Below, in pieces: positions 23,403 to 38,415 of a stretch of DNA of 38,415 nt (its first letter is position 1; each line of letters opens with the position of its first letter). This DNA comes from Longilinea sp. (GTDB lineage Bacteria > Chloroflexota > Anaerolineae > Anaerolineales > Anaerolineaceae). The notes beneath the pieces were generated by a model that was given only the letters and a program-made list of their open reading frames with translations, had not been told where the DNA came from and made no database searches. The translations under genes and the position numbers were made by a program. The stretch covers positions 1 to 38,415 of the forward strand of contig JAPKMQ010000003.1 of assembly GCA_026645875.1 (NCBI GenBank). The letters run 5' to 3'.

Positions 23403-23475
23403 TGGACCCAGGGGGATTCGAACCCCCGGCCTTCTCAATGCCATTGAGACGCGCTCCCAACTGCGCTATGGGCCC
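23403..23475 (-). tRNA. tRNA-Ala (anticodon GGC)
   Basis: 73 bases folding into a complete cloverleaf. The acceptor GGGCCCA pairs with TGGGTCC and includes the G3-U70 wobble that defines alanine tRNAs. The anticodon stem TCTCA/TGAGA closes the loop ATGGCAT with anticodon GGC. The T stem GGGGG/CCCCC closes TTCGAAT. The discriminator is A; CCA is not encoded. It lies 51 bases downstream of the other alanine tRNA and probably shares its transcript. Confidence 0.96.
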
Positions 23476-23526: not shown

Positions 23527-23599
23527 TGGACCTGAGGGGATTCGAACCCCTGGCCTCCTCAGTGCGATTGAGGCGCGCTCCCAGCTGCGCTACAGGCCC
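23527..23599 (-). tRNA. tRNA-Ala (anticodon CGC)
   Basis: 73 bases. The acceptor GGGCCTG pairs with CAGGTCC, again with G3-U70. The anticodon stem CCTCA/TGAGG closes the loop ATCGCAC, giving anticodon CGC. The T arm has TTCGAAT. The discriminator is A and CCA is not encoded. It is the first tRNA after a strong promoter. Confidence 0.96.
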
Positions 23600-35714: not shown

Positions 35715-36995
35715 CTAACGGTTTCGCGACAGGTCAGCCAGTTTGATTTCGTACTGCTCCAGGTCCAGATGCCGCTGGGCCACCCCGCTGGCAACGGCCG
35801 CGCGGGCAACCGCGCCCGCCTCCCACTGGCATACGCGCGGATCCAGCGGTTTGGGTACCAGGTAATCGCGGCCATACTCCAGCCGGTTGACGCCGTACGC
35901 GCGCAGCACCACAGCCGGAACCTGCTCCTTTGCAAGTCTGGCCAGGGACTGCGAGGCCGCGATCTTCATCGCATCGTTGATCTGGCGGGCACGCGTATCC
36001 AGCGCCCCCCGAAAGATGAACGGAAAGCCCAGCACGTTGTTGATCTGGTTGGGATAATCGGAGCGGCCGGTCGCCACGATGGCATCGGGGCGGGCTTTGA
36101 CGGCCACGTCGTACGGAATTTCCGGCTCGGGGTTCGCCATCGCGAACACGATTGGGTTCGCCCGCATGCGCTGCAGCATTTCGGGCGAGACCACATTGGC
36201 GGCCGACAGCCCAATAAACACATCCGCACCTTCCATCACTTGGGCAAGCGTGGCCGGGCGGTCGCCACGGGCATAAATTTCTTTCTCAGGGAACATCATT
36301 TCCGGCCGGCCCTGATACACCAGCCCGGCCAGATCGCACATCTGGATGTTTTCCAAAGGCACGCCCAATTTGACCAGTTGATTGGCGCACGCAATGGCGG
36401 CCGCGCCCGCGCCCGAAAACACTACCCTAATCTCGTCAAGCGTTCGGCCAGTGATCTCGAGTGCATTGATCAACGCAGCGCCCAGGATGATGGCCGTGCC
36501 ATGCTGGTCGTCGTGAAATACCGGGATATCCAGCATTTCCTGGAGGCGGCTCTCAATATAAAAGCACTCCGGGGAACGGATATCTTCCAGGTTGATGCCG
36601 CCAAACGTTGGCGCGATGGCCGCCACGACGTCGATCAGCCGGTCAGGATCTTCGGTGGCCACTTCAATGTCAAACACATCGATGTTCGCGAACTTCTTAA
36701 ACAGCACGCCTTTGCCTTCCATCACCGGTTTCGAGGCCAACGCCCCGCGGTTACCCAGCCCCAGGATGGCCGTGCCGTTCGAGATCACCGCGACCAGGTT
36801 GCCTTTGCCGGTGTATTCATAGGCCAATTGCGGATCGCGGTCAATTTCAAGCACCGGTGCCGCCACTCCGGGGGTGTAGGCCAGCGAAAGATCGCGCTGC
36901 GATTTCAGTGGTTTTGAGGGCACTACGCTGATCTTACCCGGAACGTCATTCAGATGGTGGTATTCCAGGGCCTCTTCACGTGTCACATGAATCAT
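35715..36995 (-). CDS. NAD(P)-dependent malic enzyme
   Basis: 426 residues, the short bacterial form without a phosphotransacetylase domain. It oxidatively decarboxylates malate to pyruvate in the cytoplasm. Seen are the catalytic tyrosine Y40 in [10 protein letters not shown], lysine K95 in [11 protein letters not shown], the metal ligands E137, D138 and D162 in NLEDI and FHDDQHGTA, and the nucleotide-binding GAGAAA (195-200). NAD versus NADP use is not certain. GAGG lies seven bases before the ATG. Confidence 0.94.
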
Positions 36996-37036
36996 CGGGA
37001 AACCTCATTTGCGCTTTTGATCACAATCCATCCCCT

Positions 37037-37042
37037 ATTGTA
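37037..37042 (-). promoter_or_regulatory. Candidate -10 box of the malic enzyme gene
   Basis: TACAAT on the minus strand, about 42 bases before the ATG. The -35 region is weak. Confidence 0.4.
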
Positions 37043-37179
37043 CCTGCATGCTTTCCTCTGGTGAATTGCAAACCAGGCCGGTTTTATCGGCAAGGAGGCG
37101 AATCAGGCATCAGAAAACGTGTTGGCATTGTTTATGAACAAGAGAGCATGCAGGAATACACGAATAAACGTTTTTCAGG

Positions 37180-37185
37180 TATAAT
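37180..37185 (+). promoter_or_regulatory. Candidate -10 box upstream of the structured region and recX
   Basis: TATAAT, 413 bases before recX. No clear -35. CGAATAAACGTTTT just upstream (from 37161) looks slightly like a LexA site, but it is not a true palindrome. Confidence 0.4.
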
Positions 37186-37598
37186 AGGTTCAGATTGCAT
37201 CAGGATTTATTCTGACCCGTACCTTCAAAAACCGTCTGGAAGGGTGCGGCCAGAAAATTGACTTTTGAATTGTCGGGGTTTTCTCTCGAAACGAGAGTTA
37301 AGTTCTTGAAAATGGGTGGACATCAGGTGCTCATCGCAGCGTTATTGCCAGCTATCTGGATTCTCACGGCGGATTGCCCGCCGGGGAGGAAACATGGCAT
37401 GACCCCTGGTCACGGCAACGGAAAACGGCTTTTCCGCCGCGCTCAGGCCACGGCGCACAGCCTGCCTGGGGTTTGTTCTCACCCAGTTTGACCGAACAAC
37501 CATCCTGCTCAGCCGCCGGCAGCGGCTGACCCGGACACCCCCACAATTGAGAAGCTTTTTGGCCGTTTCCACCAGGTGGCGCATGGCTGTGAACTTGG

Positions 37599-38276
37599 AT
37601 GGAACACAAGATAACGGCGCTCAAAGCACAGAAGCGGAATCCCAACCGGATTAACGTTTACCTGGATGGGAGTTTTGCGTTCGGGCTGGCGCGGATCGTG
37701 GCGGCCTGGCTGCAAATTGGCCAGGTGATCAGCGACGAGAAAATCCAAACCCTCCAGTCACAGGATACCGTCGAGGTGGCCTATCAGAAAGCCCTGCACT
37801 TTCTCAGCTTCCGGCCGCGGACTGAAAACGAAATCCGCCGGAAGTTGAAGGACGCCGGGTTTGAAGAGGAAATCGCCGATCCAATCTTGCAGCGCTTACG
37901 CGATGCTGGGATGGTATCGGATACGGAATTTGCCCGCAATTGGATTGAAAGCCGCGGCACGTTCAAGCCTCGCGGCCGCAGGGCTTTGACCCAAGAATTG
38001 CGACAAAAGGGCGTTTCAGAAGAAATCATACATGCAGCGCTGGTTGAAATGGATGACGAATCCGACCTTGCCTACCGGGCAGGCTTGCGCTACGCCAAAC
38101 GGTTGACGCAGGCTGATTGGGAAACGTTTCGCGAGAGACTAACGGCCTTTTTAGGACGGCGCGGTTTTTCTTACGGAACCATCGCCCCCCAGGTACACAA
38201 GATTTGGGATGATATTCAAAGCGACCAGGGCAAAGACCAGACTCTGACAGAAGAGGAATTGGACAATTATGAATAA
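37599..38276 (+). CDS. recX: Regulatory protein RecX
   Basis: 225 residues. RecX binds RecA and limits its filament growth. The N-terminus (ITALKAQKRNPNRINVYLDGSFAF) has the typical short beta strands, then repeated three-helix RecX units: ALHFLSFRPRTENEIRRKL, a second with DAGMVSDTEFARNWIESR and KPRGRRALTQELRQKGV, and a third near the end. No recA gene is in view. The ribosome site is poor. The 3' end overlaps the start of the next gene by eight bases. Confidence 0.9.
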   Translation: MEHKITALKAQKRNPNRINVYLDGSFAFGLARIVAAWLQIGQVISDEKIQTLQSQDTVEVAYQKALHFLSFRPRTENEIRRKLKDAGFEEEIADPILQRLRDAGMVSDTEFARNWIESRGTFKPRGRRALTQELRQKGVSEEIIHAALVEMDDESDLAYRAGLRYAKRLTQADWETFRERLTAFLGRRGFSYGTIAPQVHKIWDDIQSDQGKDQTLTEEELDNYE

Positions 38277-38415
38277 CCCTTGGATTTGGCTCATAATTAT
38301 TTTGGCGGACATCATCGTCCTGGGCGTGATCGTGTTTTTCGTCACGCGCGCGATGAACGACCGCTTCCGGCGCGAATTGCAAGGCCGCGCTGATAACGCG
38401 CTCAATCAGGCTGTT
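38269..38415 (+). CDS. N-terminal fragment of a single-helix membrane protein
   Basis: 49 codons, cut by the right edge. The ATG overlaps the end of recX, implying coupling. A hydrophobic helix (about 4-25) is followed by a charged stretch, NDRFRRELQGRADNALNQA, that looks like the start of a coiled coil. RNase Y has this layout and can follow recX in other bacteria, and RmuC is similar; neither can be confirmed from this fragment. Confidence 0.5.
   Translation, partial: MNNPWIWLIIILADIIVLGVIVFFVTRAMNDRFRRELQGRADNALNQAV

Follow-up and report, generated by a model that had tools for sequence, protein, structure and literature searches.

The approximately 410 noncoding bases lying between a TATAAT box and recX in the window (the whole 38,415-nucleotide stretch of Longilinea sp. 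DNA that was analyzed) are a structured and probably cis-acting 5′ leader of recX and of the gene that follows it, rny. This leader is conserved across the family Anaerolineaceae (phylum Chloroflexota) and, together with a terminator, across the order Anaerolineales, and it is predicted to be bistable in most of the relatives. Our main reading, to which we assign a probability of about 0.6, is that the leader acts as a bistable recX-rny RNA in which, in most relatives, a long-range closing helix (P1) is set against the terminator. The first-pass annotation of the region had proposed a long structured recX leader, which the comparison of relatives supports; the recX-rny pair, the opposition of terminator and closing helix in most relatives, and the loss of the U-tract in the window's genus are new. 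The product of recX inhibits RecA, and RNase Y, the product of rny, is an RNA-cutting enzyme that is the main decay-starting endonuclease in many bacteria. Conserved RNA control ahead of this pair would link a RecA inhibitor to an RNA decay endonuclease.

All elements of the leader are on the plus strand. The –10 element TATAAT occupies positions 37180 to 37185, in agreement with the boxes of relatives and, as the first-pass annotation had it, directly 5′ of the stretch extending from 37186 to 37598. It is followed by a small hairpin (37200 to 37215), which was predicted by RNAalifold in three congeners and shows one double change, and by the 5′ strand of P1 (37232 to 37280), for which RNAalifold and pairing z-scores identified a partner, the P1 3′ strand, at 37537 to 37579. 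P1 thus ends 19 nt before the AUG of recX. Hairpin H (CTCTCG-AAA-CGAGAG, 37283 to 37297) was also predicted by RNAalifold in three congeners, and a related hairpin occurs in relatives. According to the congener alignment and RNAalifold, the remaining internal domain (37298 to 37536) is variable and weakly conserved, with several predicted hairpins. The remnant of a terminator hairpin (TGGCCGT..ATGGCTG, 37560 to 37589) has no U-tract and shares its left arm with P1. The recX gene (37599 to 38276) was identified by the Pfam domains RecX_HTH1/2/3, and the start of rny (38269 to 38415), which runs off the window, by tblastn in locus L008, the congener copy matching RNase_Y_N and TIGR03319. Upstream, a divergent gene for malic enzyme (Pfam malic/Malic_M) is located on the minus strand at 35715 to 36995. 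Two 13-nt inverted repeats, 92% complementary, were observed within 37034–37055 and 37142–37188; through them, the malic enzyme gene is preceded on the minus strand by CAGGTACAATAGG, which nearly repeats the CAGGTATAATAGG of the leader, and the divergent promoters of this gene and of the leader look like a duplication.

One congener is 86% identical to the window's leader over the whole region; in another, identity is 84% over 124 nt close to the 5′ end (query positions 9 to 132), and the last 100 nt or so also align. In the remaining genomes (58 of 61), searches by DNA similarity revealed nothing convincing, with three matches of 25 to 34 nt near an E value of 0.01. For more distant relatives, we rely on synteny: recX is present in 134 of the 147 genomes of the family, and 110 of these loci provided the family set of upstream regions (24 left out), to which 65 of the 100 other loci of the order were added (35 left out). 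Tests that required either a certain length of upstream sequence or the presence of a terminator were run on 108, 109, 91 or 81 of the 110; locus L103 was left out of alignment A6 and L046 out of A4. In the family set, TATAAT was found 150 to 480 nt upstream of recX at 106 loci (20.2 expected from dinucleotide shuffles), and TGTATAAT at 83 (1.4 expected). The arrangement of the leader recurs across the family although the gene located further upstream varies, and rny is the next gene after recX at all loci tested (30/30 in the family and 25/25 in the order). Counted from about 6 nt after the box, the leaders span 187 to 537 nt; L074, whose leader is cut by a contig end, falls outside this range. 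A hairpin resembling H (YCUCC-loop-GGAG) is located after P1 in 43 of the 110 leaders, for 2.2 expected and a maximum of 5 in 20 shuffles. No other part of a conserved core was seen to recur, the interior varying in both length and sequence. In genus g11 (L041–L098), columns 86 to 132 of alignment A4 form a strongly conserved leader block around AGAACCGTACGAAAATTTTTCGCCGGCATCCTGCCTGGC, which was absent from the other genera inspected.

The absence of a plausible gene from these 400 or so bases, put forward in the first-pass annotation, holds across the relatives: the longest plus-strand open reading frame of the leader has a mean of 45.2 codons, as compared to 43.1 in dinucleotide shuffles (110 relatives), and is longer than in shuffles at p ≤ 0.05 in 7 of the 110. 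A small frame after hairpin H was striking by eye, with 59 codons in two congeners and about 50 in some members of g9; it was rejected as coding because its lengths, ranging from 1 to 74 codons, are not above those of shuffles. In the two congeners (window positions 37299 to 37491 and L009), this frame has the same length and the same end (..HPV stop). An SD-like tetramer precedes recX at 18 of the 110 family loci, for 16 expected. There is thus no Shine-Dalgarno signal above chance in the sequence before recX (window positions 37580 to 37598 and relatives), whose start may use another route. The region had also been described as matching no recognizable RNA family, and this was borne out: Rfam scans of the window region gave no match at gathering score and nothing beyond chance at E ≤ 10, and those of 20 relatives (E ≤ 10) gave scattered chance matches, none of them recurring. 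The covariance model of rne5 (RF00040) matched neither the window region nor the 20 relatives, and no T-box or riboswitch model matched in these scans. Within the window, Rfam matches at gathering score are limited to a pair of minus-strand tRNA genes (23403 to 23475 and 23527 to 23599).

The first-pass annotation had counted at least six hairpins and regarded the region as much denser in hairpins than the other gaps of the window. The leader does fold more strongly than its shuffles (z of –3.06 on the plus strand and –2.33 on the minus strand). However, 10 of 94 equal-sized plus-strand windows, most of them coding, fold as well relative to their own shuffles. Fold strength is thus not exceptional in the window, and the higher density is not established by folding alone. 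It is the comparison of relatives, not fold strength, that shows that the structure is real. Conservation, gene decay and membership in a known family were each examined, and the reading as a leader stands.

Evidence for P1 was provided by pairing of the first 110 nt or so of the leader with the last 85 or so, which reached –45.2 kcal/mol as compared to –34.1 kcal/mol for shuffled sequences. The z-score was below –2 in 69 of 109 leaders, including those of the three congeners of the window's genus (–2.7, –3.7, and –3.7), and in 38 of the 109 the leader's own pairing was unmatched by any of 60 shuffles. The 5′ and 3′ ends of the same leader paired better than all 15 GC-matched swaps with other genera in 68 of the 109; a swap test in which the terminator served as the anchor gave a weaker result (best 5% in 40 of 91). 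RNAalifold applied to the full alignments of f12 and g11 returned mostly the terminator and local hairpins, not P1, and two genera were therefore used to test P1 as a named helix. Alignment of relatives, which the first-pass annotation had proposed as a check for compensatory changes, showed that P1 covaries in both. In g16, 93.6% of the cells were paired, with double changes at 5 of 12 pairs and a covariation score reached by none of 500 shuffles, whereas slid helices were 22 to 47% paired; in g11, 91.4% of the cells were paired, with double changes at 3 of 10 pairs and a score reached by 1 of 500 shuffles, the count of pair types not being above shuffles (405/500). The columns were picked by scanning each alignment for the best-paired helix, a choice that raises the share of paired cells and favors P1 over the slid-column control. 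The same scan of f12 (A3) found no helix with more than 75% of paired cells, and f12 was left out of the helix test. In the three congeners, 2 of the 40 predicted pairs show double changes and 8 are broken in one sequence (by eye). P1 is weak or absent in g8, g12, and g14. Outside the family, it reached p ≤ 0.05 at 23 of 59 loci (59 of the 65 being kept); it was clearest in f12, f13, f14, and parts of f2, f5, and f9, and not clear in f3, f4, f7, f10, and f11.

The second conformation is a terminator, typically a hairpin AGCCGU...ACGGCU followed by a U-tract, which ends 5 to 25 nt before recX in most leaders of the family, the U-tract often reaching the start codon. Tested against 40 dinucleotide shuffles per locus, it was better at p ≤ 0.05 at 81 of 108 loci of the family and at 58 of 65 loci of the other families of the order. 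Outside the order, inspection by eye revealed the same terminator (GCCGUGGC) at 2 of 6 loci from the class and at none of 14 loci elsewhere in the phylum. The terminator of the window's genus was not better than shuffles in the three congeners (0.57, 0.45, and 0.15): the arms TGGCCGT/ATGGCTG are kept and the U-tract is gone, leaving TGAACTTGG as the tail. The element is degenerate in the window itself, and attenuation is not supported for this genus. On a joined RecX and RNase Y tree of 36 loci, the labels 'terminator' and 'none', one of which in g4 and one in g25 are near the cut-off, need 6 and 5 changes, with 4 and 3 changes forced by well-supported branches. Since the outgroup families carry the terminator, its repeated loss is the simplest reading.

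The two conformations overlap, as the 3′ strand of P1 contains the left arm of the terminator, in the layout of a terminator and an antiterminator. In models of a transcript truncated at the left arm, this arm finds a partner within the first 110 nt in 72 of 81 leaders, for 36.6 expected after shuffling these 110 nt. The full-length minimum free energy structure contains the terminator in 50 of the 81 leaders and P1 in 30, and imposing the terminator raises the free energy by a median of 0 kcal/mol (range 0 to 9.8). In these folding models, the P1 and terminator states lie close to balance, as would be the case for a kinetic switch.

Together, these observations suggest how the leader might operate, and we infer from here on the direction of control, the signal, and the physiological role. 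The 5′ strand of P1 would have to await transcription of its partner, some 200 to 350 nt downstream and immediately before recX, an interval that would give several seconds for action on this strand. In relatives with the terminator, formation of P1 would let RNA polymerase read through into recX-rny, and displacement of P1 by the terminator would stop transcription before recX. Our preferred guess for what tips the balance, made by analogy, is feedback by RNase Y, which would cleave or bind the leader. RNase Y is a natural candidate because rny is in the operon at all loci tested and because, according to PMC10303841, RNase Y of Bacillus subtilis controls its own mRNA partly through the 5′ UTR. 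P1 is usually retained where the terminator has been lost, and since this loss occurred several times, P1 must act beyond antitermination in these lineages. For the window's genus, a role in translation or mRNA stability is more likely, since the U-tract is gone and P1 is kept near the AUG: P1 and the remnant hairpin would compete in a region ending 10 to 20 nt before the AUG and thereby tune either process. A broader proposal, which we consider tentative and rather improbable, is that the leader represents an order-wide new class of RNA switches, in which RNase Y reads the late-forming P1 on the nascent transcript of its own operon and sets termination ahead of recX-rny, and which became translational in some lineages, including that of the window. 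Such a switch would couple the control of DNA repair (recA/recX) to RNA decay (rny) throughout the order.

The loci outside the family bear on the origin of the element and on the rival readings. The RecA C-terminus is encoded directly upstream at 38 of the 65 loci, which makes a recA-recX terminator the probable origin of the element. In these 38 recA-linked loci, TATAAT is about as frequent as expected by chance (2 found, 1.2 expected). In f12, malic enzyme is encoded upstream at 7 of 11 loci, as in the window, and TATAAT is present at 11 of 11. We infer an ancestral order recA-[terminator]-recX-rny, followed by separation from recA with acquisition of a new promoter and by repeated loss of the U-tract. 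The loci would then provide a natural series, in which the terminator is located between genes, has moved with a new promoter, or has been lost while the rival helix stays.

The first-pass annotation had also considered an independent RNA. Such a noncoding RNA would have its own promoter and terminator, P1 would close its ends, and recX-rny would be served by readthrough; the TATAAT box of nearly all family loci, the terminator at the end of the element, and the persistence of P1 in genera devoid of the terminator are consistent with this view. However, a promoter of its own does not accompany the element wherever it occurs, since a search limited to TATAAT found the box in the family and in f12 and at chance level where the element lies between recA and recX. 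The sharing of the terminator's left arm with P1 also argues against an independent RNA, as does the location of the 6S RNA, tmRNA, and RNase P RNA genes elsewhere in the genome (C15, C89, and C113), none of these RNAs giving a match here. We therefore regard the independent RNA as unlikely. A plain terminator, passed down from a recA-recX-rny operon and holding the levels of RecX and RNase Y low compared with RecA, its 5′ complement being a by-product devoid of regulation, is quite unlikely: the presence of the terminator in most families, the frequent linkage to recA, and the patchy distribution of P1 outside the family would all fit, but P1 covaries within the family and persists at loci that have lost recA and even at those that have lost the terminator. 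We consider it highly improbable that P1 encloses a small-molecule aptamer, as in a classical riboswitch. Although P1 overlapping a terminator arm is a usual layout of ON switches, hairpin H was the one core element seen to recur (in 43 of the 110 leaders), and the leaders vary in interior sequence and length and match no Rfam model in the window region or the 20 relatives.

The recX-rny leader is apparently undescribed so far, a novelty that we consider provisional. The literature on recX or recA-recX attenuation, on a recX-RNase Y operon, and on riboswitches of Chloroflexi contained no description of the element, within a coverage consisting mostly of papers accessible without subscription and not extending to the 2017 survey of 224 candidate RNAs. 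Structured RNAs of Anaerolineae are hardly described, and a full-text search for them found nothing. The main text of a survey of 104 motifs, the part of that source considered here, contains neither recX nor recA (PMC2864571).

The bistable recX-rny leader resembles several known systems and differs from each. It shares a common layout with attenuation leaders, since riboswitch platforms and T-box leaders also combine mutually exclusive helices with a U-tract before the gene, although no conserved sensor domain was found here. The RNase E 5′ UTR, rne5 (RF00040), is likewise a structured leader, of about 360 nt, associated with the gene of a decay endonuclease; we know of no terminator in rne5, and the present leader has no Rfam match. 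Autoregulation of RNase Y in B. subtilis, by cleavage of the 5′ UTR, likewise points to the long untranslated region that precedes rny as a candidate site of feedback, the available text of PMC10303841 describing no terminator switch. In the leader described here, recX is inserted between the 5′ UTR and rny. A further parallel is offered by E. coli, in which a terminator located between recA and recX reportedly limits recX. The present element differs in that a long-range 5′ complement competes with the terminator and recX is followed by rny; in the window's family, it is moreover no longer linked to recA and carries its own promoter box.
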